Part shown: piece by piece, positions 26,594 to 58,007 of the stretch
Layout: the number at the start of each line of letters is the position of its first letter
Numbering within the stretch: position 1 is the first letter of the stretch
DNA from: Linderina pennispora
Taxonomy: Eukaryota; Kickxellomycota; Kickxellomycetes; Kickxellales; Kickxellaceae
Assembly (NCBI RefSeq): GCF_002104995.1
Contig: NW_024468262.1
Location: forward strand, 1 to 64,000
Direction of reading: 5' to 3'
Length of the DNA stretch: 64,000 nucleotides
Made by a program: the position numbers and the translations under genes
Notes under the pieces: generated by a model
Databases searched by the model: none
What the model saw: the letters and a program-made list of their open reading frames with translations, nothing else
What the model was told of the DNA's origin: nothing

Positions 26594-26891
26594 CAGAACG
26601 TAGCGCTTTTCTCTTTCTCAAGCCGTGGCGAGCTGGCCGTGACTCGAGTCACGACTCGGGGACAATGCCAGTGTCGTCATTTTTAAACTTTGACCTGCGG
26701 CATCCCGCGGTTGTACTCGGTGAAATATGCAAAGCTCTCCACTCTCACCCCCTCAGGGCAGTTTTTCCAGCATTCCAAATTTGAACCACCATATCCTTAT
26801 TATATTGTACAGCCCGTTGGCAGTCTACTTACTGAAGCAACAGCAGCAGAAGCAACAGAAACCCGGTCAGAGAAGAAGAAAAAGAGGAACA

Positions 26892-29800
26892 ATGAGCGCT
26901 GCAATTCAGGCTATTGGTGAGTATTCCTGGTCTCTGGGGAGTTCGGGTCCTGGCACGGTAGAGAAGAGCCTTTGGGGTCGTTGTATGCTAATCATGTCTA
27001 TGAAAAACGATATAGGCGAGACTCTCGCTAGGCTTGATGACGGCGACTTTGCCGCGTCTCTCGAGGTGGTCGACAGCTATCTGACCACCTCGAACGATGA
27101 GGATATTGCCGTGAGCCATAGCCGGGGTGTGGCCATCGAGCAGGCTGCCCGCCAGCAGTCTGGATACGACACCGGCGATATCAGCAGCTCGGGCGAATTT
27201 GCCAGCTTCCGGGACGCTAGCAGCTCCCCGGCATGGTTCAGCATCCGTCTGCCCAAGACATCCCCGAGCCGCCATAGTGTGAGTTCAGCAACCGAGGCAT
27301 TTTCCGATACCAGTGTGATGCAGAGCCTGCGCCGAATGGTGCAGCGCGAGGAGGCGTGGCAGCAAACCAAGGCCACGTACGAAAATCACTTGTCGCAGAT
27401 GGCACTGCACCTTCAACAGCAGTCGCTAGCGTTCAAGTCAGCTCAGGCCAAACTCAAATCGCTGGGGGCTGCACCTGACCCCGTTATCGATCAGTATGCA
27501 TCAAACGGGACGTTCCCCGTGTCCACTGGCGCCGAGCTGCAGCCAGACGAGTCCATTGGCGGGTCGACCACCGAGAGCAACTACAACAGCTGGTGGGCAA
27601 CGTTCCTGCCGGCTGCCACCGGCATGCCAGCACGTACCTCTGGTAGTCTGCCCAACAGCCCGATGGTCAGCGCCTCGCTGAATGGGTATGCGACGGTGGC
27701 AGGCACCGGCGAGCTTGTGTGTCTCGAGTGCATCCAGGCGTGCGAGCGCGTTGCCGATGCTGTGCTGCACGGCGACTTCAATGCCCGGGTCAGGTGCACG
27801 CGCTGCCACAACATTGACGGTGCTGGCGAGAAGGAGTGGCCACTGACCAAGCCCACAGGCGCTGCTGGTCACGTATCGGCATCCTCCAGCCAGCTGACAG
27901 GAACTCCGATGATTAGCCACCCAGTTACGCATACCCAGAAGCTGGCGAACCGTGTCAACCGCATGGCTTCGCTGCTGTCCTTTGTCACCCATGAAATCGT
28001 CGGCGTGGCACGCAACGACGGCATTCGTGGCATTCTCGGCACCCAGGGCAGCATTGATGGACTGAACGGGACTTGGCTTGAGCTTATGAACGAGGTCAAC
28101 ACGATGACACGGATCCACACGGAGCAGGTGCGCAACATTGCGCACGTCTGCAACTCTGTGGCCAACGGCGACTTGTCCGAGAAGGTCTCGATTGACGTCA
28201 ACGGTGAAATGGCTGAGCTCAAGGACACGATCAACAGCATGGTGGACCAGCTCAGTGCCTTCTCGTTTGAGGTCACCCGCGTCTCGCATGCCGTCGGCAC
28301 CGAAGGCACGCTGGGCGTCACTGCCGAGGTCCCCGACGTCAACGGTGTCTGGAAGCTGCTTACGGATAATGTCAACAGCATGGCCAGCAATCTGACCAAC
28401 CAGGTGCGCGATATCTCGAATGTCTGCAAGGCCGTGGCAGCCGGTGACCTGACGCGCACGGTGCAGGTCGAGGCACGCGGCGAAATGCTTGAGCTCAAGG
28501 ATACAATCAACACGATGGTTACCAGACTTGACCATATGGCGGTGGAGCTGACCCGCGTGGCTGTCCAGGTTGGCATTGACGGCATGCTGGGGGGACAGGC
28601 AAACTGGTTTGAACTCGACGGCACCTGGAAGGATCTAACGGACAACGTTAACCGTATGGCGGATAACCTGACACAGCAGGTACGCGATATTACGAGAGTC
28701 ACCCAGGCCGTGGCCCGCGGTGACCTGACACGCAAGGTCGAGGTGCCGCTTAACGGTGAAATGGCAGAGCTGAAGACGACTATTAACGAAATGGTGGACA
28801 GGCTCAACACTTTTGCATTTGAGGTCTCGCGTGTGGCCAAGGAGGTCGGTACTGATGGGCAGCTCGGTGGCCAGGCAAATGTCCCCGATGTCGATGGTAC
28901 CTGGAAGGTTCTGACTGACAACGTGAACACAATGGCGGACAACCTGACCAACCAAGTTCGTGACATTGCGAATGTGACCAAGGCCATTTCAGCTGGCGAT
29001 CTGACGCGCAAGGTGCAGGTGCCGCTGAACGGCGAGATGGATGAGCTCAAGATCACTATCAACACCATGGTGGACCAGCTCAACACTTTTGCGTTTGAGG
29101 TCTCGCGCGTGGCCAAGGAGGTCGGTACCGACGGTAAGCTTGGCGGGCAGGCCAATGTTGAGGGTGTTGGCGGCACTTGGAAGGACCTGACTGACAATGT
29201 CAACAAGATGGCGGACAATCTGACCAACCAGGTCCGAGACATTGCTGACGTTACCAAGGCTGTTGCCGCCGGCGAGCTATCGCGCAAGGTCATGGTTCCA
29301 CTGAATGGCGAGATGGGCGAGCTCAAGGACACAATCAACCAGATGGTGGACCAGCTCAGCCACTTTGCCGACGAGGTCACCACGGTCGCCATCGAGGTTG
29401 GTCTGGAGGGCCGTTTGGGTGCACAGGCGCGTGTCGTCGGCGTGCAAGGCGTGTGGATGGACCTGACGCACAACGTCAACAAGATGGCGTATAATATCAC
29501 AAGACAAGTGCGTAACATTGCTGAGGTCACCCGGGCCGTTGCCAAGGGCGATCTGGGCAAGCAGGTCGACATCCCGTGCAAGGGTGAGATGGAGTTTTTG
29601 AAAACTACTATCAACGACATGGTTGCCCGACTAAAGACGTTCTCCAGCGAGGTGTCGCGTGTCGCCAAGGAGGTTGGAACTGACGGCAAGCTGGGCGCCC
29701 AGGCATCAGTGCCTGATGTGGAGGGCACGTGGAAGTACTTGACAGAAAACGTCAACAAGATGGCCGACAACTTGACTAACCAGGTTCGGGACATTGCGAC

Positions 29801-32800
29801 GGTGACCAAGGCTATTTCAGCTGGCGATCTGACGCGCAAGGTGCAGGTGCCGCTGAACGGCGAGATGGATGAGCTCAAGATCACTATCAACACCATGGTG
29901 GATCAGCTCAATACCTTTGCCAAGGAGGTCTCGCGTGTCGCCAAGGAGGTCGGCACTGATGGACAGCTCGGCGGCCAAGCAAACGTCGAGGGTGTTGACG
30001 GCACCTGGAAGGTTTTGACGGACAACGTCAACAACATGGCCACCAACTTGACCAACCAGGTTCGAGACATTGCCACAGTTACGAAGGCGATCTCAGCCGG
30101 AGATTTGACGCGCAAGGTTGAAATTCCGCTGAACGGCGAGATGGGCGAATTGAAGGACACCATCAACACTATGGTTGGGCAGCTGAAGACGTTCGCGTCA
30201 GAGGTATCTCGTGTTGCCAAGGAGGTCGGCACGGATGGCAAACTCGGCGGCCAGGCATATGTGCCCAATGTCGACGGCACTTGGAAGGACCTGACCGACA
30301 ATGTGAACAAGATGGCTGACAACCTGACGATTCAGGTGCGCAACATCGCTGAGGTCACCAAGGCAGTTGCAGCAGGCGAAATGTCCAAGCGCATCACAGT
30401 GACTTTGAATGGTGAGATGGGCGAGCTCAAGACCACTATCAACGCCATGGTCAACCAGGTCAGCCAGTTTGCCGCGGAGCTTGCCAAGGTCGCGCACGAG
30501 GTCGGTACCGAGGGCCAATTGGGAGCACACGCCGACATGAGCGGGGTTGATGGTGTCTGGAAAACGCTCACAGACAATGTCAACAACATGGCCGACAATA
30601 TTACCAATCAGGTGCGCAACATCGCCGAGGTCACCAAGGCCGTCGCTGAGGGCGATCTGTCCAAGGAGGTCACTGTCCCGCTAAAGGGTGAGATGGGCGA
30701 CCTGAAGACCACTATCAACGACATGGTTGCTCGGCTGAAAACGTTCTCCAGCGAGGTGTCGCGTGTCGCCAAAGAGGTCGGGACTGACGGCAAGCTGGGC
30801 GCACAGGCGACAGTGCCTGATGTCGAGGGTACATGGAAGGACTTGACCGACAATGTCAACAACATGGCGACTAATCTGACGAACCAGGTACGCGACATTG
30901 CGACGGTGACAAAAGCGATCTCGGCCGGCGATTTGACGCGCAAGGTTGAGGTGCCGCTGAACGGTGAGATGGGTGAGCTCAAGATCACTATCAACACCAT
31001 GGTTGATCAGCTCAACACGTTCGCGGACGAAGTATCGCGTGTCGCCAAGGAGGTCGGAACCGATGGCAAGCTTGGCGGGCAGGCCAATGTCGAAGGTGTT
31101 GATGGTACGTGGAAGGTTTTGACTGACAACGTCAACAACATGGCCACCAACCTGACCAACCAAGTCCGTGATATCGCCAATGTCACCAAGGCAATCTCAG
31201 CTGGTAACCTCAATCTCAAGGTCGAGGTGCCGCTGAACGGCGAGATGGGTGACTTGAAGGGCACCATCAACACGATGGTGGACCAGCTCAACACGTTCGC
31301 CGCCGAAGTGTCGCGTGTGGCCAAAGAGGTCGGAACTGATGGTCAGCTGGGCGGACAAGCCAATGTCCCAAATGTCGACGGTACCTGGAAGGACCTTACT
31401 GACAACGTGAATACCATGGCTGACAACCTGACCAACCAGGTGCGGACAATCAGCAACGTCACTAAGGCTGTTGCGCTTGGCGATCTGACACAGAAGATCA
31501 AGGTCGATGCGCTCGGAGAGATGGGCGACCTGAAGACCACAATCAACGACATGGTGGACCGGTTGAACACGTTTGCTGATGAGGTGTCGCGTGTGGCCAA
31601 GGAGGTCGGCACAGACGGCAAGCTTGGCGGTCAAGCCAATGTTGAGGGTGTTGATGGAACTTGGAAGTCGCTGACTAACAACGTCAACCGGATGGGTGAC
31701 AACTTGACGAACCAGGTCCGAGACATCGCCAATGTCACCAAAGCTATCTCTGCTGGTGACCTGACGCGCAAGGTCCAGGTGCCGCTAAATGGCGAGATGG
31801 GTGAGCTCAAGTCGACCATCAACACCATGGTTGACCAGCTGAGCACTTTCGCGGCTGAGGTGTCGCGTGTCGCCAAGGAGGTTGGAACTGATGGGCAGCT
31901 CGGCGGACAGGCCAACGTTGAGGGCGTTGATGGGACCTGGAAGTCGCTCACAGACAACGTCAACAAGATGGCAGACAACCTGACCAACCAAGTCCGTGAT
32001 ATCGCCAATGTCACCAAGGCTATTTCAGCAGGCGACCTGACGCGCAAGGTCGAGGTGCCGCTGAATGGTGAGATGGGTGAGCTCAAGCAGACCATCAACA
32101 CGATGGTGGACCAGCTCAACACATTCGCCTTCGAGGTATCCCGAGTTGCTAAGGAGGTCGGTACCGATGGTCAGCTAGGCGGACAAGCCAATGTCCCAAA
32201 TGTCGACGGTACCTGGAAGGACCTTACTGACAACGTGAATACCATGGCCGACAACCTGACCAACCAAGTCCGTGACATTGCAATGGTCACTACAGCCATT
32301 TCAGCAGGCAACTTGAATCTCAAGGTCGAGGTGCCGCTAAATGGCGAGATGGGTGAGCTCAAGTCGACCATCAACACCATGGTGGACCAGCTGAGCACGT
32401 TCGCGGCTGAGGTGTCGCGTGTGGCCAAGGAGGTTGGTACCGATGGGCAGCTCGGCGGACAGGCCAACGTTGAGGGCGTTGATGGGACCTGGAAGTCGCT
32501 CACTGACAACGTCAACAAGATGGCAGACAACCTGACCAACCAAGTCCGTGATATCGCCAATGTCACCAAGGCTATTTCAGCAGGCGACCTGACGCGTAAG
32601 GTCGAGGTGCCGCTCAATGGCGAGATGGGTGAGCTCAAGCAGACCATCAACACCATGGTGGACCAGCTCAACACATTCGCCTTCGAGGTATCCCGAGTTG
32701 CCAAGGAGGTCGGTACCGATGGTCAGCTAGGCGGACAAGCCAACGTCCCAAGTGTCGACGGTACCTGGAAGGACCTTACTGACAACGTGAATACCATGGC

Positions 32801-35800
32801 TGACAACCTGACCAACCAAGTACGCTCGATTAGCAAGGTTACCACCGCGATTGCTGAAGGTGACTTGAGCAAAAAGATCGACATTGTTGTCAACGGCGAA
32901 ATGGGCGAGCTCACAAATACTATCAACGAGATGGTCGACAAGCTCCGCGGGATTGTATCAGAGCTGTCGAGTGTTGCACTCCAGGTCGGCACCGACGGCC
33001 AACTTGGTGGTCAGGCTCACTTGAAGAACATTAGCGGCAACTGGAAGGACTTGACCGATAACGTCAACAAGATGGCATACAACCTGACCAACCAAGTCCG
33101 TGACATCGCAACGGTCACTAAGGCTATCTCTGCTGGTGACCTGACGCGCAAGGTCCAGGTGCCGCTGAACGGCGAGATGGGTGAGCTCAAGTTGACCATC
33201 AACACGATGGTGGACCAGCTGAGCACTTTCGCGGCTGAGGTGTCGCGTGTCGCCAAGGAGGTTGGAACTGATGGGCAGCTCGGCGGACAGGCCAACGTTG
33301 AGGGCGTTGATGGGACCTGGAAGTCGCTCACTGACAACGTCAACAAGATGGCAGACAACCTGACCAACCAGGTGCGCGACATTGCCAACGTCACCAAGGC
33401 GATTTCAGCGGGTAACCTGAACATGAAGGTCGAGGTGCCACTCAATGGCGAGATGGGCGAGCTCAAGGATACCATCAACACGATGGTGGACCAGCTCAAC
33501 ACGTTTGCGGATGAGGTTACACGAGTTGCTAAGGAAGTGGGTACTGAAGGCAAGCTTGGCGGCCAGGCCAATGTTGATGGTGTTGATGGCACATGGAAGG
33601 ATCTGACCAACAACGTGAACACCATGGCCAGCAACCTGACGACCCAGGTCCGATCCATCAGCGAAGTCACCAAGGCTGTCGCACACGGCGATTTGACGCA
33701 GAAAATTGAAGTTGACGTCGAGGGTGAAATGCTGGACCTTAAGACCACTATAAACGAAATGGTTGACCAGCTCAATATCTTTGCCGATGAGGTCTCACGA
33801 GTCGCACTAGAGGTCGGCATCAATGGCAAGCTTGGTGGCCAGGCATTTGTTCCTAACGTCGACGGCGTGTGGAAGAAGGTCACGGACAACGTCAATACCA
33901 TGGCCAATAACCTCACGTTCCAGGTTCGGTCTATCGGAAATGTGACCACCGCTGTTGCGCGCGGCGATCTAACCAAGGTCATTGCTGTGGATGCGCGTGG
34001 CGAGATGGGCACATTGAAGACGACAATGAACGGGATGGTGTCCCAGCTGCGTATCTTTGCTGGGGAGGTGTCGCGTGTGGCCAAGGAAGTCGGTACCGAC
34101 GGTCAGCTGGGCGGCCAAGCCAACGTCCCGAATGTCGACGGTACCTGGAAGGAGCTCACCGATAATGTCAACACCATGGCCGACAACCTGACCAGCCAGG
34201 TGCGGACAATCAGCAACGTCACTAAGGCTGTTGCGCTTGGCGATCTGACACAGAAGATCAAGGTCGATGCGCTCGGAGAGATGGGCGACCTGAAGACCAC
34301 AATCAACGACATGGTGGACCGGTTGAACACGTTTGCTGATGAGGTGTCGCGTGTGGCCAAGGAGGTCGGCACAGACGGCAAGCTTGGCGGTCAAGCCAAC
34401 GTACCAAACGTGGGTGGCACATGGAAGGGACTGACAGACAATGTCAACACCATGGCTAACAATTTGACAAACCAGGTGCGCGACATCGCCAATGTCACCA
34501 AAGCTATCTCTGCTGGTGATCTGACGCGCAAGGTTGAGATTCCGCTGAACGGCGAGATGGCAGAGCTGAAAGACACGATCAATACCATGGTGGACCAGCT
34601 CAGTACGTTTGCTGACGAGGTATCGCGTGTCGCCAAGGAGGTCGGTACCGATGGCAAGCTCGGCGGGCAGGCCAATGTCCCGAACGTCGACGGCACCTGG
34701 AAGGGACTGACAGATAATGTCAATAAGATGGCGGACAACTTGACGAACCAGGTCCGTGACATTGCCAATGTCACCAAGGCAATCTCAGCCGGCAACCTCA
34801 ATCTCAAGGTCGAGGTGCCGCTGAACGGCGAGATGGGTGACTTGAAGGGCACCATCAACACGATGGTGGACCAGCTCAACACGTTTGCCGCCGAAGTGTC
34901 GCGTGTGGCCAAGGAGGTTGGAACTGACGGCAAACTCGGCGGACAGGCCAACGTCGAGGGTGTTGATGGCACCTGGAAGTCGCTTACTGACAACGTCAAC
35001 AAGATGGCAGACAACCTGACCAACCAGGTGCGCTCTATCAGCGAGGTCACAAAGGCTGTTGCGCTCGGCGATTTGACGCAGAAGATCAATGTCGATGCGC
35101 TCGGAGAGATGGGCGATCTGAAGACAACTATCAACGAGATGGTGGACCAGCTGAATGTATTTGCTGATGAGGTGTCGCGTGTCGCTAAGGAGGTCGGAAC
35201 TGATGGGCAGCTTGGTGGCCAGGCGATCGTTCCCAATGTTGATGGTACCTGGAAGGATCTGACATTTAATGTCAACAAGATGGCAGACAAATTGACCAAC
35301 CAAGTCCGAGACATCGCCAATGTCACCAAGGCTATTTCAGCAGGCGACCTGACGCGTAAGGTCGAGGTGCCGCTCAATGGCGAGATGGGCGAACTCAAAA
35401 ACACGATCAACACCATGGTGGACCAACTCAACACATTTGCAGCCGAAGTATCCCGAGTTGCCAAGGAGGTCGGAACCGATGGTCAACTTGGCGGACAGGC
35501 CAACGTCCCGAATGTCGATGGCACTTGGAAGGACCTGACTGACAACGTCAACAACATGGCCACCAATCTGACCAACCAAGTCCGTGATATCGCCAATGTC
35601 ACCAAGGCAATCTCAGCTGGTAACCTCAATCTCAAGGTCGAGGTGCCGCTGAACGGCGAGATGGGTGACTTGAAGGGCACCATCAACACGATGGTGGACC
35701 AGCTCAACACGTTTGCCGCCGAAGTGTCGCGTGTGGCCAAGGAGGTCGGAACTGATGGTCAGCTGGGCGGACAAGCCAACGTCCCAAATGTCGACGGTAC

Positions 35801-38800
35801 CTGGAAGGATCTGACAGACAATGTCAACAAGATGGCCACCAATCTGACCAACCAGGTGCGCGACATTGCAGATGTCACCAAGGCGATTTCTGCGGGTGAC
35901 TTGACACGCAAGGTTCAGGTTCCGCTGAATGGTGAGATGGGCGAGCTCAAGCAGACCATCAACACCATGGTGGACCAGCTCAGTACGTTTGCTGATGAGG
36001 TGTCGCGTGTGGCCAAGGAGGTTGGTACTGATGGCAAGCTTGGCGGGCAGGCCAATGTCCCGAATGTCGATGGCACCTGGAAGGGACTGACAGATAATGT
36101 CAACAAGATGGCGGACAATCTGACGAACCAGGTGCGTGACATTGCCAATGTCACCAAGGCCATTTCAGCAGGCGATCTGCGCCAGAAGGTGTCGTCGGAT
36201 CTTAACGGTGAGATGGCAGAGTTGAAGACAACCATCAATACCATGGTGGACCAGCTCAGTACGTTTGCTGATGAGGTGTCGCGTGTGGCCAAGGAGGTCG
36301 GTACCGATGGCAAGCTCGGCGGACAGGCCAACGTCCCGAATGTTGATGGCACTTGGAAGGACTTGACGGACAACGTCAACAAGATGGCGGACAACTTGAC
36401 GAATCAGGTCCGAGACATCGCCAATGTCACCAAGGCAATTTCAGCTGGCAACCTTAATCTCAAGGTCGAGATGCCGCTGAACGGCGAGATGGGTGACTTG
36501 AAGGGCACCATCAACACGATGGTGGACCAGCTCAACACGTTCGCCGCCGAAGTGTCGCGTGTGGCCAAGGAGGTCGGAACTGATGGGCAGCTAGGCGGAC
36601 AAGCCAATGTCCCAAATGTCGACGGTACCTGGAAGGATCTGACAGACAATGTCAACAAGATGGCCACCAATCTGACCAACCAGGTGCGGGACATCGCCAA
36701 TGTCACCAAGGCAATCTCAGCCGGCAACCTTAATCTCAAGGTCGAGGTGCCGCTGAACGGCGAGATGGCAGAGTTGAAAGACACTATCAACACCATGGTT
36801 GACCAGCTGAGCACGTTCGCGGCTGAGGTGTCGCGTGTCGCCAAGGAGGTCGGTACTGATGGACAGCTGGGCGGACAAGCCAACGTCGAGGGTGTTGATG
36901 GCACCTGGAAGTCGCTCACTGACAACGTCAACAAGATGGCAGACAACCTGACCAACCAGGTTCGCTCTATTAGCGAGGTCACAAAGGCTGTTGCGCTCGG
37001 CGATTTGACGCAGAAGATCAATGTCGATGCTTTGGGTGAGATGGCAGAGCTGAAGACGACCATCAACACGATGGTGGACCAGCTGAGCACGTTCGCTGCT
37101 GAGGTGTCGCGTGTCGCTAAGGAGGTTGGTACTGATGGGCAGCTTGGTGGCCAGGCAAATGTTCCCAACGTCGATGGTACCTGGAAGTCGCTCACTGACA
37201 ATGTCAACAAGATGGCAGACAACTTGACCAACCAGGTGCGCGATATTGCCAATGTCACCAAGGCTATTTCAGCAGGCGACCTGACGCGCAAGGTCGAGGT
37301 ACCGCTGAACGGCGAGATGGGTGAGCTCAAGCAGACCATTAATACCATGGTGGACCAGCTCAGTACGTTTGCTGATGAGGTGTCGCGTGTGGCCAAGGAG
37401 GTTGGTACCGATGGCAAGCTCGGCGGGCAAGCCAATGTCCCGAATGTCGATGGCACTTGGAAGGGGCTAACCGACAACGTGAACACCATGGCTGACAACC
37501 TGACCAACCAAGTCCGTGATATCGCCAATGTCACCAAGGCCATTTCAGCAGGCGATCTGACACGTAAGGTCGAAATTCCGTTGAATGGAGAAATGGCCGA
37601 GCTCAAGCAGACCATCAACACCATGGTGGACCAGCTGAGCACTTTCGCTGCTGAGGTGTCGCGTGTGGCCAAGGAGGTTGGCACCGATGGTCAGCTGGGC
37701 GGACAGGCCAATGTCGACGGCGTCGATGGCACTTGGAAGGATCTGACTGACAATGTCAACAAGATGGCCACCAATCTGACCAACCAGGTGCGTGATATCG
37801 CCACAGTAACCAAGGCCATTTCAGCAGGCAACTTGAACCTTAAAGTCGAGGTGCCACTCAATGGCGAGATGGGCGAGCTCAAGTCGACCATCAACACCAT
37901 GGTGGACCAGCTGAGCACGTTCGCCGCCGAAGTGTCGCGTGTGGCCAAGGAGGTCGGAACTGATGGGCAGCTCGGTGGACAGGCCAATGTCCCGAATGTC
38001 GACGGTACCTGGAAGGATCTGACAGATAATGTCAACAAGATGGCGGACAATCTGACGAACCAGGTGCGTGACATCGCCAATGTCACCAAGGCGGTTGCTG
38101 CTGGTGATTTGCGCCAGAAGGTGTCGTCGGATCTTAACGGTGAGATGGCAGAGCTGAAGACGACCATCAACACGATGGTGGACCAGCTGAGCACGTTCGC
38201 TGCTGAGGTGTCGCGTGTAGCCAAGGAGGTAGGAACTGATGGCCAGCTGGGCGGTCAGGCCAACGTTGAAGGCGTTGACGGCACCTGGAAGTCGCTCACT
38301 GACAATGTCAACAAGATGGCAGACAACTTGACCAACCAGGTGCGCGATATTGCCAATGTCACCAAGGCGATTTCGGCAGGTGATCTGACGCGCAAAGTTG
38401 AGATTCCACTGAACGGCGAGATGGCAGAGCTGAAGACGACCATCAACACCATGGTAGACCAGCTCAGCATCTTCGCCAAGGAAGTGTCCCGTGTCGCCAA
38501 GGAGGTCGGCACCGATGGTCAGCTCGGTGGCCAGGCAAATGTTCCCAACGTCGATGGTACCTGGAAGGATCTGACCGAAAACGTCAACAAGATGGCAGAC
38601 AACCTGACAAACCAGGTGCGCTCTATTAGCGAGGTCACAAAGGCCGTTGCGCTCGGCGATTTGACGCAGAAGATCAATGTCGATGCTTTGGGTGAGATGG
38701 CAGAGCTGAAGACGACCATCAACACCATGGTAGACCAGCTCAGCATCTTCGCCAAGGAAGTGTCCCGTGTCGCAAAGGAGGTCGGCACCGATGGTCAGCT

Positions 38801-41800
38801 CGGTGGCCAGGCAAATGTTCCCAACGTCGATGGGACCTGGAAGTCGCTCACCAACAACGTTAACCGGATGGCTGATAACCTGACAAACCAGGTGCGCGAC
38901 ATTGCAATGGTGACCAAGGCGATTTCGGCCGGTGATCTGACCAAGTTTGTCACTGTTCCTCTTAGCGGCGAAATGGGCGAGCTGAAAGACACAATTAACA
39001 GCATGGTCAAGCGCCTGGCTGTCTTCGCCGCTGAGGTCAATAAGGTCGCCCGCGAGGTCGGCACTGAGGGCAAGCTCGGCGTGCAGGCCCTTGTCCACGA
39101 CGTCGAGGGTGCATGGCTGGAGGTCACATCCAAGGTCAACACCATGGCTCTCAACCTCACCAACCAGGTACGTGCGTTTGCGCAGATCACAGCGGCCGCC
39201 ACTGGCGGTGACTTTAACTCGATGATCACCGTTGACGCATCTGGCGAGATGGACGCGCTCAAGTCACAGATCAACCGCATGGTGACATCGCTGCGTGTGA
39301 GTATCGTGCGTAACATGCAGGCCCGCCAGGCAGCCGAGGTAGCCAACCGTGCCAAGAGCGAGTTCCTGGCTAACATGTCGCATGAGGTGCGCACGCCTAT
39401 GAACGGTATCATTGGAATGACTTCGATGACCTTGGAGACCAACCTGACGCACACACAGCGTGATTCGCTGATGATTGTGTCGAGTCTGTCGAACTCGCTG
39501 CTGTCAATCCTCAATGACCTGCTTGACTTGTCCAAGATTGAGGCTGGTCGCATGAGCATGGAGCAGATTCCATTTGCGCTGCGCAACGCCATGCTGAGTG
39601 TGCTGAAGACTCTGTCGATCAAGTCGGTGCAGAAGGGCCTCAACGTCTTCTTTATGTGCGATCCTGATATCCCCGACAACGTTGTCGGCGACCCGCATCG
39701 ACTGCGCCAGGTGCTGACTAATCTGGTTGGCAACGCGGTCAAATTTACCAATGAGGGCGAAATCTCGATTAATTGCCGTTGCCTGCAGCGCCAGGGCAAC
39801 GAGCTCACGCTCGAGATCTCAGTCAAGGACACGGGCATTGGCATCCCCAAGGACAAGATTGATGTCGTGTTTGAGACATTCACGCAGGCTGACGGTTCAA
39901 CCACTCGTAGATACGGCGGAACGGGTCTGGGTCTCAGCATCTCGCGTAGCCTCTGCCGTCTCCTTGGAGGTGACATCCGCGTCGAGAGCGAATATGGGCT
40001 CGGATCCAACTTTATCTTCACCTGCAAGCTTGAGGCACCTGTGCCTAACTTTGAGTTCTTCGAGCGTCGCATTCTGCCCTACCGTAACCGCCATGTGCTG
40101 GTTATCTACGACTGCCGCAACAACCCGGAGGCCAAGGAAATGGTGGTTAAGCTGCGTGAGATGCTCCACTCGTTCCATCTGAGCACAGCGACTGTCGACA
40201 CAGCAGAGCAGGCCGAGCGCCTGATTTGGCGCGGAGCACAGCACCGTCCCATGTTTGACACATTCATTGTCGATACAATGCAGACCGCCGATGAGTTGCG
40301 GTCCACTGGGCTGACCAACCTGAACTTCATGCCCATTGTCTACTTTGCCGACCCGCGCAACAGCTGCATCAACGTCAACCGCATCATTGAGCTCGGCATC
40401 AACTCGTACATTGACATTCCGTTTGACTACAGCAAGCTTGCCAGCGCGATGCTGCCAGCCCTCGAGACACACTCGCTTATTCCTGATCTGTCCAAGTACC
40501 GCAAGCGCCCCCTGCGCATTCTTCTGGCTGAGGACAATGTGGTCAACCAGAAGCTTGCGCTACGCATCCTGCAAAAGTGCAACCACAAAGTCGAGGTCGT
40601 GTCCAATGGGCAATTGGCAGTAGAGGCTGTCATGGATACGTGGAAGCGCAATATGGACATATACGGCAAGAATATCAGGAAGGACGCATCCAACCCTGGG
40701 TCGGAGAACGACAGGAGCGGGCCATCGCATAGTCGTGCCAAGTCCAAGTCGCCGTTTGCCATGGATCCTGACGAGCCGACGCCAACGGATGAGCGCATCG
40801 ATTTCATCGGCGATGCCGAGCCAGGGCTCAGTCGCATCACTGAAGTTGACGAGTCCGGAGATGGCGGTGACGCCAACGAGGGTGCCTCTGTCCAGTCCCA
40901 GAGCGCTGAAGCAGGTGGGCAGCCGCAGGAAGGCAGCGAGTCCGACAAGCCCAAGGCCGTTGAAGGCACGGTATTTGCTGACAGCATGTACCCGCCAGCT
41001 GTCAAGGCTCCTGATGACCTGCCACTCGTGCTCGACTCTATCGATATTCCGAACGCGGAGGACAAGGAGGCCGACGAGGACAATCCGTACAACAACACGA
41101 CCGAGGAAAGCCCCGAGGAGACCAAGCCAGCCGGTGTGCGCGATCCCAAGTCCAAGTTTGCCTGTGTGCCGATGCCGTTCGACATCATCCTGATGGACAT
41201 CCAGATGCCAGTAGTCCACGGATTTGAGGCCACCAAGCGGATCCGCAAGTGGGAGGAGAGTGAGGGCGTTGATTTCCGCACGCCGATTATTGCGCTGACA
41301 GCACATGCTATGCTGGGAGATCGCGACCGCTGCCTGTCGTCTGGGATGGACGAGTACATCACCAAGCCCCTGCGGTTTGAGACGCTGCTGACGACTATCA
41401 CACGCTTCCAACCGCGGATGTATGACGAGTACGGCGATATTGTGCCCATCGTTGACACGATAAACGACTCGACTGATTCCCAGTCCAACTCTGATGACGA
41501 TGACAGCGACAGCGACGATGAGATGGAGCCGATGCATCCCCGCGACTACTTTGGTCGGGACGATGTGCCATATGGTATCTACGACGATGATGGGTACAAT
41601 GACGACGACGACGACGATGACGACGACGGCGATGACTGTGACGATGATACGGAGAGGTACCGGCGATCGTTCCTGGGCACTGCCTTTGGAAAGCGTGCCA
41701 AGAAGAGCCCAGGGGCAAGTAGTCGGCTACCGCGATGCACCGCCTACCATGATTTCGCAAGGGCGATCGTGAGCAAAAGACGTCGCAGCAGCGCAAGGCA

Positions 41801-42059
41801 GGCCCGTGCTCTGCGCAAGCAAGTCATGAAGTACAAGCGCGAGTATGGCGAGCACATTACGCGCAAGGGTGATGCGATGTCTGGGGTGGAGCAGCAGTTG
41901 TCCGACGGCAAACGCTCAGGCGATATCACTGACTCTGCAGAGAACAGCGACAACGAGGGGGATGGCAGCAATGACGACGGCGGCTCTGAAACAGCCTTGG
42001 CATCGCTGAGGCAGCCGAAGAAGTCTGCTTTCAAGCCTTCCGAGATGGTGCTGACCTGA
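26892..42059 (+). CDS. Giant group III hybrid histidine kinase (Nik1/Os-1 type), 41 HAMP units
   Basis: Cytosolic osmo/fungicide-sensing phosphorelay kinase that in other fungi feeds the HOG pathway. From MSAAIQAIG (26892; frame also open upstream) and after splicing a 99-nt in-frame intron, ~5,022 residues. Order: N-terminal region with a HAMP-like entry module (27.7-28.0 kb); 41 HAMP units (28020-39335); HisKA with [10 protein letters not shown] (phospho-His codon 39381); HATPase with [29 protein letters not shown] and GGTGLGLSI; a pseudo-receiver (40.1-40.48 kb) lacking the phospho-Asp; a true receiver, [13 protein letters not shown] and LMDIQMPV (Asp codon 41196), ITKPL. The receiver is split by a ~180-residue acidic insert. 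No transmembrane span. Known Nik1 proteins are ~1,100-1,400 residues. The last unit, [15 protein letters not shown], matches the family's kinase-proximal HAMP closely. C-terminus is probably longer (see 42062-43232). Confidence 0.93.
26917..27015 (+). other. Intron, 99 nt, frame-neutral
   Basis: Donor GTGAGT directly after ATTG, branch-like TGCTAAT at 26984-26990, acceptor ATATAG. Its length is 33 codons without stops, so retention does not break the frame. Removing it joins SAAIQAIG to [11 protein letters not shown]. Confidence 0.75.
28020..39335 (+). repeat. 41 x 276-bp tandem array encoding 92-residue HAMP units
   Basis: Every unit is exactly 276 bp; unit n starts at 28020+276(n-1). The consensus begins [20 protein letters not shown] and continues through [58 protein letters not shown] and [13 protein letters not shown]. 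Edge units (1-3, 5, 6, 9, 10, 40, 41) and a few internal ones (18, 19, 21, 22) are diverged; most others differ at a handful of positions. Confidence 0.97.
40635..41178 (+). other. Acidic low-complexity insert inside the receiver domain
   Basis: About 180 residues rich in D, E, S and P, between the AVEAV helix and the [11 protein letters not shown] strand that normally lie within ~10 residues of each other. No stop codons and no convincing splice sites, so it is read as coding disorder. Confidence 0.75.
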
Positions 42060-42061
42060 TC

Positions 42062-43232
42062 GTGACTTTGAAAAGCACAACACTAGCAACTTTCTCGATG
42101 AAGCAGCTGAACAACCGGTCGATCTACAACTCGTACTCGATCATGTCGCAGTCAGCCAAGAGCCGCCGCGACCGCAAGCTGGCGCAGTCTGGCAAACAAA
42201 AGCAGACCCGCAGCTCGAGCTCACCACAAGCCCGTGTGGTCGCTGCCTACGAGAAATCGCACCGTGAGTCGCAAAAGAACAAGATGGGCGGCAGCGGTGG
42301 TTTGCGTGCCGGGATGCTCCCGATGGACTTTATGGATGGTCAGTCGACATACCGTGATGGCATCTACTCGATGGACTACAACATGGGCGGCCAAGGTTTT
42401 GAAGCTCAGGCCACGTACCTTGATCTGCCCCGGCACAGTATCATTGACCCGACGATGCTCAGCTTCGATCCGCCGGGCGCGCCAGCGCACAGCAGCTTCA
42501 GCTACGGTACTACCCAAGGAGGAACTCCCACCATCGACAACTCCAAGTCGCGGTCCGATGGCGGCTGGTCGGTAGCAACACCTGTGCGGCCAAGCATCCT
42601 GACGGCTCAGACAGCTACTGGCTCATTCAGCAGCGGCTCAGCACCGCCAGCATCGGTCAACCGTGCCCGTTCGCCGTTCAGTCCCGCGAACACCAGCACA
42701 AAGCGCGTCGGGCGAGGCAGTGTCGGCTGCTGCTGCTACCAATTACTCACAGCTTAAGACGACTGCCGATATCGCGGCTGCCATGGCGGCCGCTGCAGCA
42801 GGCGATGCCAATGCACTGCGTGCGATCCAGTCCACTACCATGTTCAACGACACAGGCGAGGTGTCAACGGAGCCAGCAGACCCTAATGTGGAGTTTTATA
42901 GCCACCGCCTCGCTAGCCAGAGAGCTGAGACGATGCCTGTCAGTAGCTCGGCTACAGCAGCATCCTCATCTGACCCGATGCTGATGGTAAAGGCATCGCC
43001 TGTCTCCTCACCGTCACTGGCCAAGGCGCAGCAGGTTGGAGGCGGTGCTTCCATGCCAGCAAAGAGCTCCTCTGGTGGTGGAGACAGCGCCACTGCACAC
43101 GGACACCAATCGTCATCATCAAAGGCGTCATTGAAGCTCTCTCGCAATGTGCGTGAGCGCCTGATGCGAGCTCGTCAGAAGCAGATCAACAAGCACAAGG
43201 ATGACGACGAGGTCAAAGGTGCGACTGAGTGA
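42062..43232 (+). CDS. Ser/Gln-rich segment, probably the C-terminal tail of the histidine kinase
   Basis: Coding-like sequence continues without an intergenic gap past the stop at 42057-42059, in the +2 frame and then (from ~42715) the +0 frame. It includes MKQLNNRSIYNSYSIMSQ, a basic stretch (SAKSRRDRKLAQ), Met/Gly-rich MLPMDFMDGQ, Ser/Ala-rich runs and a basic end (RNVRERLMRARQKQINKHK) before the stop at 43230-43232. I recognise no domain. Between the two frames the middle frame offers [13 protein letters not shown] at ~42060, so two one-base insertions would fuse this tail to the kinase. A similar hidden frame excursion ([15 protein letters not shown]) occurs near 41730. Alternatively it is a separate gene, but no promoter-like gap or convincing start supports that. 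Confidence 0.55.
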
Positions 43233-44039: not shown

Positions 44040-46238
44040 GACAAATGTGTGATTTCCAAGCACACTCTTGCCAATAGCGATTAGATTTCTGTTCACACTC
44101 CTTAACCTTAAGACGATATTTATCCAGCACATCCTTGGGCAGCACTGCATGCACATAGTCTGGGTGCAGAACAAGCAGCTCTGCACCAACCTGGCCTAAA
44201 CACAAACGATGTCACAAGCGCAGCATCGATTCCTCCTGGTTTTCCAATATAGTTTTGTGAACGCTTACATTCGGTTTTATCAGAACCTTTATAGTTTATC
44301 ACTAGGAGAACATGCTACCTAGTACCTTCCTCCCAGACAGCTTGACCAAGATCTTTTTAGGCACGCACAGCTTCCTTTTGCTTGTTTTTTTTGTGGGCTA
44401 CGATGAGCGCTGATAGAAGAAAGGCATCTGGCATCATAAAATAATGAATGAAGAAGGCTGGTAAGCTCTACTTTGCTGGTAATGGCAAATGGCTCATCAG
44501 TGAAGGTGAGAATCCAGCCTGGTTGCGCTTGGACAAAAGCTCAGTACCAATAGGTACCTCGACAGAAAAGTTGGAGTGCTTGAGTAGCACAGGCTGTAGA
44601 TAATTAGATTCCTCAGAAGTCAAAGAGATGCTATTTGAAATTGTTGCAAACTGTTATGGAGATATGACTTGTGCTGAAAGGAAGAGAAGCATCTCCAACC
44701 TAAATGCAGATTATATACAAGTCCTTTGGGAAATGCCATCGCTTGGCTGCTTTTTGACTAGGGTGTTTTGACCAAGCTCAGCTGCGACCTGTGTGCCTCA
44801 GATGTACTGTGTATTTTCTGCTAGATTGTGTTGAAGTAGTGGCATATATTGGGCAAGCTGTTTTGTACCAAGTGTCTGCGGCAAGCCAAACAGCGTTTCT
44901 ATGCTACAAACTCTTGTCAGTAGACTAACCATCAGGTAGAATTAGGCGCCATGGTCCCCAACACTGAGGACTTTTCGCATATACACACGCCTCCTAGATA
45001 GCTTGTAACTTTCAAATGACTATTGTTGGTTGAAGGTTATATGGATACATTTATGCTACCACTAGATTGGATAACACCTTTCAGCCATGAAGCGACACGT
45101 ATGTCAGGCAGAAGGAAGGCTGGTCGTCTGTCTGGGCCTTTGTACGTATGCGTTTCGGTCTTGTCTATGGTGGCGCAGGGGACTCCGGACCCGAATGTCA
45201 ACAGTATTAAACTCAAGCCCTTCCTCCATAAAGCCACCCACTCCACTAGTTTCAGCATCAAGTATTCAAGTGACAATCCACTCACAGCCACTGCCAGCCC
45301 AGTATTGTATACCTTGGGAACCAGCCATTCCCAACCCGCAAGCACTGCTACTACAATGATAGTTTTTGGTATGATAGGTATAGTGGATATATTGGGCAGA
45401 TAAACCGACCCTCGCTTACTGTTGTGTCTAATCTTGTGCGCTGACAAGCTTTTCGATACCTGGGGGTTTCATAGTCTACATCTATCACTGTATTATCGCG
45501 AATAGCTAGAATGGTGGCATCCCAAAGAAAAAACAGGGGAAAAGTGCGCAAGTAGTCCACTCCAACTCTGTTCAAAGTTACCATGGAGAGCTCTCGAAAG
45601 GTCCATTCAATTGCCCTCGCACTTATTGCAGGGGCATTGGCAAGACAATAACCGCTGTTGGTATCAGTCAGCCGTGTAGTGGTAGGAGGCCAAGGGATAA
45701 TGCTCAAGAACAATAGGACAATATATCCATCACAATAAGCGCAAAAAACCTTCACAAGCCATAGCAATTCGGCAAGATGCAGTCTTGCTTGACAGAGCTT
45801 CCAGGAAGTGGAGTGTTGTAACACCAGGTGGTGTGGCCATTTCTGTATCATGTCTACGTCGTGCCTGTGAGCCAAGTAGAGTAGATGACTGCGTCAGCAA
45901 GGGGTTGGTAGAAGATATGGCGAAAAATAATAACCAACGACGGCGAATGAGCTTGTGGTTGCCTGATATCTGCGCTGTATTGTGCTTGCGGATAGCAAAC
46001 CAGGGGAAATCGGATAAGAAACTGGACTGGCTGGAGTCGGCATGTGGTAATATAGGTACATATGTCTTCGCTATTTAATCTAGCGCTCCTGTGTCGATGC
46101 TTTGTAGAAAATACACTAGCACCACTTGGCAATATCTACATGAGCCACCATTTTATATGCATGACTGCTCTATTATGTTTCTGCATTCAAGATGGATACT
46201 GTCATATACACGGTTCCCAAAAGCACAGTATGATTTAT
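44040..46238. other. Gene-poor, AT-richer region
   Basis: About 2.2 kb with no recognisable gene apart from the dispersed repeat at 45094-45207. Minus-strand open frames at 45.4-45.9 kb lack family signatures. Composition resembles the 4.2-8.3 kb region. Confidence 0.5.
45094..45207 (+). repeat. Dispersed repeat copy B (inverse of 7212-7320)
   Basis: Matches the reverse complement of 7212-7320 across about 110 bases, including ACGTATGCGTTTCGG and GGCGCAGGGGACTCCGGACC, with scattered substitutions and 1-2 base indels. Confidence 0.7.

Positions 46239-53749: not shown

Positions 53750-58007
<4,258 letters not shown>

Follow-up and report, generated by a model that had tools for sequence, protein, structure and literature searches.

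The subject of this analysis is a giant gene of the fungus Linderina pennispora (Kickxellomycota), found in the window, i.e., the whole stretch of 64,000 nucleotides that was analysed (contig NW_024468262.1 of assembly GCF_002104995.1, positions 1 to 64,000, forward strand). A single uninterrupted frame of 5110 codons (26727–42059, + strand) specifies a hybrid histidine kinase of about 550 kDa, in which the kinase domains are preceded by 41 tandem units of 92 residues (28020–39335, +). By the published convention these correspond to 40 HAMP pairs plus one HAMP, or 81 HAMP domains. The protein carries 42 GEM motifs, one of which is an extra motif within a unit, and since the other 41 are spaced exactly 92 residues apart, the array measures exactly 41 × 276 bp with no indels, as the initial annotation of this DNA had stated. 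Tandem Repeats Finder independently detected the 276-bp period (37.4 copies, 74% matches), and a six-frame search with the Pfam HAMP family gave 72 matches, 41 of them in the window gene, all above the cut-off, and 31 in a second contig, C116, that is described below. HAMP_2 likewise gave a match in all three scanned segments. Matches of some units to other Pfam families (WXG100_2, ApoLp-III, ATG17_like and Prominin), some of which exceed the cut-offs, were dismissed as coiled-coil noise.

Downstream of the array, the Pfam scan placed HisKA (39351–39548, with the motif SHEVRTP), HATPase_c (39687–40034) and a Response_reg receiver domain (40500–41408) in that order, all on the + strand. Together with tandem HAMP repeats of about 90 residues at the N-terminus, this is the organisation of group III kinases, and the Nik1/Os-1 type proposed initially is upheld. 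The H, N, G1 and G2 motifs of the kinase and the phospho-Asp, Thr and Lys of the receiver are all present, and from these motifs the protein is predicted to be an active kinase. The initial annotation had called the core intact, which holds for the catalytic and phospho-Asp motifs but not for the receiver as a whole, which is split by an in-frame, low-complexity insert of approximately 180 residues (40638–41174, limits approximate). The comparison shows this insert in each of five Kickxellales but not in any of five other fungi. By hydropathy alone there is no transmembrane segment: the maximum Kyte-Doolittle mean over 19 residues is 1.44, and no window of this size reaches 1.6. Among the NCBIfam comparisons, the 25 core matches listed (119 families matched the core) and the three to the N-terminal piece all fell below their cut-offs. 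Homology continues beyond the stop codon at 42059, where matches to a second L. pennispora record and to two further Kickxellales extend, in shifted frames, to about 43200 (tail continuation, 42050–43229, +). The reported frame thus falls short of the whole gene, and because the other L. pennispora record, which shares about 97% identity across the C-terminal part, extends 390 residues beyond the end of the window frame, the natural protein is probably close to 5500 residues.

A search of the draft genome (26,172,285 bases in 222 contigs) provided an internal check on the reality of the array. Contig C116 (17,099 bases) aligns with the locus from base 499 to its end at 96.9% identity, with 63 indels, none of which is longer than 12 bases, and it therefore has 41 units when counted by DNA. 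Its reading frame is broken, which is probably why the six-frame search found only 31 HAMPs on it, and the database gene model derived from it (DL89DRAFT_327644, partial, Linderina pennispora) counts 39 units. The left end of C116 runs into sequence of contig C46 that lies on either side of an inserted dispersed repeat. The best interpretation of C116 is as the second haplotype, and there are further small contigs that resemble second copies of large ones (e.g., C205 of C24, and C123 of C1). Its small indels probably reflect a poorly polished contig, and some may be real. The full-length entry of the window copy itself was not among the 50 database matches listed.

Tandem repeats are a classic source of assembly error, and it could be argued that a repeat-confused assembler multiplied the units of a gene of normal length; the 63 small indels, 39-unit gene model and mere 31 HAMP matches of C116, as well as Coemansia entries with 1–15 units, could be cited in favour. 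However, the units share on average just 72% of their bases (and 74% of their residues), both contigs align through the entire array, 40 of the 41 window units are closest to the C116 unit of the same number, and several other species have 32–39 units. The differences between the contigs are mostly silent, with 380 synonymous and 25 non-synonymous changes across the coding frame. Because a second contig lacks any indel longer than 12 bases and the two copies differ almost only at silent sites, an assembly accident is very unlikely to be the source of the array, and this explanation, which we hold to be scarcely credible, was rejected.

The units are old and distinct. Besides their modest average identity, four-fold sites shared between units agree at a frequency of 0.43, where random matching would give 0.30, and the similarity of units depends little on how far apart they lie in the array. 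Most duplications are accordingly old and the units are unlikely to have been multiplied by the assembler, although a few pairs are closer (e.g., units 15 and 17, which share 0.97 of their bases). The initial annotation had suggested, among other possibilities, a length-tunable timer, but a rapidly changing array of tunable length is not supported, given the alignment of the two contigs without gain or loss of units and the far-diverged silent sites between units. A hypervariable variable-number tandem repeat was also rejected, as similarity between units hardly declines with distance.

Comparison of the contigs gave ratios of non-synonymous to synonymous divergence (dN/dS) of 0.243 for the N-terminal part, 0.008 for the array (10 versus 345 changes) and 0.073 for the region after it. 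The array is therefore translated and strictly selected in its reading frame. Silent divergence is uneven, being 0.184 in units 12–40, 0.055 in units 1–11 and 0.043 after the array, and stretches that differ between the contigs match other units of the same contig more than they do in 60 codon-shuffled sets (290 observed; the controls averaged 176.7, with a standard deviation of 4.6, and reached at most 185). The pattern is indicative of conversion between units that left their number unchanged, although mixed polishing of C116 may be an alternative source of the signal. Conversion among like units would itself depress dN/dS in units 12–40. In units 1–11 alone, where silent divergence is ordinary, the ratio is also 0.008 (1 versus 38 changes). 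The length of the array may have grown through old, lineage-specific duplication, after which conversion would have exchanged sequence between units. The almost purely silent divergence makes this gene a good test case for the study of selection and conversion in coding tandem repeats.

Related proteins were collected by a database search restricted to lengths of about 2810–8942 residues, which returned 50 matches among 1338 scored candidates, and units were counted in 171 proteins. Among the best 60 of these, the window protein has the most units (41), followed by the C116 gene model and Coemansia sp. RSA 986 (39 each), C. spiralis and C. reversa (37 each), Martensiomyces (about 33), two further Coemansia entries (32 each) and Mortierella alpina (31). 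A Kickxella model in the same set has about 32 units, its Pfam list comprising HATPase_c without HisKA or a receiver. The claim that 41 units lie far beyond the known range therefore agrees with the five to six repeats given in the consulted parts of published papers, but not with these relatives. In CaNik1p, five repeats are described as nine HAMPs, made up of four 92-residue pairs and a single domain, and group III as having five to six repeats (PMC3848655, in part); this number is common among group III kinases rather than defining, and that of Linderina departs from it.

A tree was calculated from 62 kinase cores chosen from 280 proteins, mostly omitting partial, unnamed and near-duplicate entries. 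Seven units are present in ten basidiomycete members (which we take to be Tremellomycetes, Ustilaginomycotina and Atractiella), eight in Acaulospora, 9–13 in Basidiobolus, 15–16 in Mycena, 10–27 in Mucorales, 24–31 in Mortierellomycota, 25–28 in Dacrymycetes, 24 in Dimargaris and 12–20 in seven bacteria. Six of the ten other Kickxellales have 32–39 units, while the remaining four, all Coemansia, have 15, 4, 2 and 1. With these short Coemansia models set aside, the fungal members span 7 to 41 units. The 55 fungal poly-HAMP cores are separated from the seven bacterial ones by a split with 100/100 support, in a tree that holds neither other fungal histidine kinase groups nor ascomycete Nik1; the tree program warned of possibly misplaced long branches, that of Dimargaris included. 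No ascomycete-named entry occurred among the matches listed, and ascomycete Nik1 was compared through papers only. Taken together, 41 units are the most found in the material searched, and they represent the long end of a wider family trend and not a lone outlier.

Dunin-Horkawicz and Lupas are said to have reported arrays of about 31 HAMPs in 2010. In the open literature searched, with subscription papers mostly outside its coverage, no description of fungal arrays of this length was found, nor any paper on the giant Kickxellales homologues, nor one in which 'Linderina pennispora' and 'histidine kinase' occur together. A survey covering the histidine kinases of early-diverging fungi (PMC5285503) names group III kinases, and its main text does not contain the word HAMP.

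The order of units appeared at first sight to be conserved throughout the Kickxellales, since whole-array alignments of Linderina with six other members beat all 100 shuffles. The arrays of M. alpina and Linnemannia zychae also did so, narrowly, and those of Helicostylum, Dimargaris and Calocera failed to beat all 100. After two units were trimmed from each end, only 6 of the 15 pairs of Kickxellales scored above every one of 200 shuffles, with one tie, and for Linderina only one pair of five did (with Martensiomyces), so that conservation of order throughout the group was rejected. Units 18–19 (32712–33263, +) are a landmark: unit 18 has a best match of 72–79% in each of five Kickxellales, and unit 19 finds its best match immediately after that in four of these species. 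The array ends recur, as do a few landmarks (e.g., units 6 and 18), and turnover has affected much of the interior.

Upstream of unit 1 lies an N-terminal cap with the pattern CxxC...CxxC in a degenerate, HAMP-like sequence (residues 332–360; 27720–27806, +). Among 44 proteins surveyed it was found in the nine from Kickxellales, one of which, the Kickxella model, has it in altered form. One CxxC and a further cysteine after a GDL-type motif make up a shorter version, which is carried by many Mortierellomycota and Mucorales and by Dimargaris, and the shorter cysteine set also occurs in Acaulospora and Basidiobolus; several of the 44 (e.g., two Calocera and two Mycena entries) have no CxxC. Within the array, cysteines are confined to the tip. 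In all seven Kickxellales examined (among 24 fungi in all) they lie within the first six units, always in units 1 and 2 and at position 60 of one of units 4–6, with one or two extra in some. In Linderina they are in units 1, 2 and 6 (units 1–6, 28020–29675, +), and the remaining 3220 residues of the array are cysteine-free. Other patterns were seen elsewhere, with C49 in many units of four Mortierellomycota and C44 in nearly all units of Dimargaris; neither occurs in the Kickxellales examined.

The cap is possibly metal- or redox-active. In Drk1, according to part of the text of PMC6433957, a cysteine in a HAMP domain affects the response to fludioxonil and aldehyde, and the kinase is thought to turn into a phosphatase acting on Ypd1. 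Because of this role, and of the confinement of cysteines to the array tip, a sensor at the tip is a fair but tentative idea. A more elaborate version for the Kickxellales, in which a thiol- or metal-sensing head (the cap with the cysteines of units 1, 2 and one of units 4–6) sits at the far tip of an otherwise cysteine-free dimeric rod of ~200 nm that integrates tip chemistry with crowding, all within the only HisKA kinase of the cell, is a long shot. If true, it would amount to long-range allostery through 81 HAMPs in series.

Components of a phosphorelay were sought in the same draft genome by an exon-wise search. Just one HisKA locus emerged, made up of the window gene and its second copy (two matches of three candidates), and the kinase is thus the only one of this type found in the draft. 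HATPase_c gave 16 matches, two being the window gene and its copy. Ten of the other 14 were scanned by domain: five are of the mitochondrial dehydrogenase kinase type, one of the topoisomerase II type, one is an Hsp90 and three carry HATPase_c_3. Judged by score or sequence, three more (on C205, C173 and C153) resemble second copies, and the last lies at C179:222472. Fungi usually have one gene for an HPt protein. Two different HPt (Ypd1-like) proteins with the motif HKGSS were found here, and a third match, on C11, resembles a second copy of one of the two. Apart from the kinase itself, receiver domains are encoded on C1 (with C123) and on C179, the latter in a protein that reads as Ssk1-like. 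This suggests that a single HisKA kinase may drive the two-component signalling of one fungus.

The explanation we consider probable is that the gene specifies a group III (Nik1/Os-1 type) kinase whose poly-HAMP input has been lengthened to 41 repeats, forming a long rod that sets the output to Ypd1 and the high-osmolarity glycerol (HOG) pathway. The closest solved chains are 9trk (E = 6.7e-72) and 9trj (2.2e-34), both fusions of histidine kinase pieces with Gcn4p, followed by Aer2 (3vol, 1.4e-5), and a long dimeric rod is plausible on this basis. The HAMPs of Aer2 alternate between two conformers with opposite output (PMC3570549, in part), and deletion of all HAMPs from CaNik1p in yeast activates Hog1p (PMC3848655, in part). 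Given the solved chains and these two examples, the most likely mechanism would be a long parallel dimer that biases the balance between kinase and phosphatase. The array of the presumably cytosolic protein would be continuous, very roughly 200 nm long (estimated from about 2.5 nm per HAMP × 81), and would keep the kinase in the 'on' state. Osmotic stress, crowding, or thiol attack on the cap or first six units could then shift the conformer balance along the rod and turn the kinase towards phosphatase activity on Ypd1, with activation of the HOG mitogen-activated protein kinase, as reported for relatives with short arrays.

Several points weigh against this interpretation. The two halves of a unit, compared by profile, are only suggestive of homology (HH probability 9%, P 0.0036, in the expected register, with 1 of 30 column-shuffled controls higher). 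To our knowledge there is no precedent for a signal that passes through 81 HAMPs, and the far end of the array may serve anchoring or localisation, not sensing. The order Ypd1, Ssk1 and HOG is taken from homology and from papers on other fungi, only some of its parts having been sought in the genome. Coemansia sp. RSA 1821 has the cap and the kinase core with only 15 units, and a correct model would mean that far fewer units can suffice for a kinase of the Kickxellales. We think that the short Coemansia entries (from strains RSA 1821, RSA 990, RSA 2050 and IMI 209127) are truncated or collapsed models, because the 15-unit protein and a 4-unit one (Coemansia sp. RSA 990) have identical cores.

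Two other views of the array deserve consideration. It could serve chiefly for spacing or scaffolding, as a long rod by which the kinase is tethered or held at a distance within the cell (or nucleus), with hardly any signal passing along most of it. Many interior units are near-identical in protein and seem to exchange by conversion, unit number varies among species, and the weak conservation of interior order after trimming would also fit. On the other hand, the dN/dS of the array is lower than that of the region after it and stricter than a spacer seems to need (even if conversion may depress it in units 12–40), and the exact length of 92 residues in all 41 units suggests that the phase of the coiled coil matters; a role mainly as spacer is regarded as unlikely. 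Somewhat easier to entertain, though still doubtful, is a neutral, ratchet-like expansion, in which HAMP pairs are phase-neutral, duplications accumulate and length as such is without function. The wide variation in array length across the kinase-core tree would be expected under this view, as would the likely exchange between units and the four Kickxellales with only 1–15 units, if their models are right. It sits less well with the 32–39 units of the six others, the same unit number on both contigs, and the purifying selection that extends throughout the array.

A few other features of the window were recorded. An ABC transporter with two ABC_tran stretches is encoded on the opposite strand (54170–57595, −), and two dispersed repeats (44220–44436 and 45107–45204) have many genome copies that are roughly 80% and 95% alike, respectively. 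Rfam and tRNA scans of the window gave no matches.

How a signal is passed through HAMP domains is a long-standing question that has mostly been studied with few in series, and a natural family with 7 to 41 units on related cores invites the question of whether signal, threshold or noise scales with length. The present kinase also suggests that the kinase by which phenylpyrrole fungicides exert their effect can take a very different form in early-diverging fungi.

Among known systems, the chemoreceptor Aer2 and the 9trk/9trj chains show sequence homology to the array across about two to three units, but Aer2 has just three N-terminal HAMPs and is not a kinase, and 9trk/9trj are Gcn4p fusions. 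The poly-HAMP hybrid kinases of bacteria (Bryobacteraceae, Streptomyces, Myxococcales and others) have the same type of unit, with 12–20 units in the seven compared, but many are annotated with GAF domains and their kinase cores form a separate branch. AskA, AskB and Amb07 are described as having a poly-HAMP region that is extended relative to that of NIK1 (PMC7643160, in part). Group III kinases (Nik1, Os-1, TcsC, Bos1, DhNik1 and CaNik1) resemble the Linderina protein in their 92-residue HAMP repeats, HisKA, HATPase and receiver domains, and in the expected lack of a transmembrane segment, but their arrays have five to six repeats and not 41. Group III members signal to Hog1 by way of Ypd1 and Ssk1 and respond to fludioxonil. 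Also listed as different from group III were the cap with its cysteines, the insert in the receiver and the long tail at the C-terminus of Linderina, in a comparison that did not contain ascomycete members. The giant homologues of other Kickxellales (Coemansia sp. RSA 986, C. reversa, C. spiralis and Martensiomyces), known from database entries, have fewer units and share the interior order only in part, but they carry 32–39 units of the same length, the same cap and, in the four shown, the same insert in the receiver.

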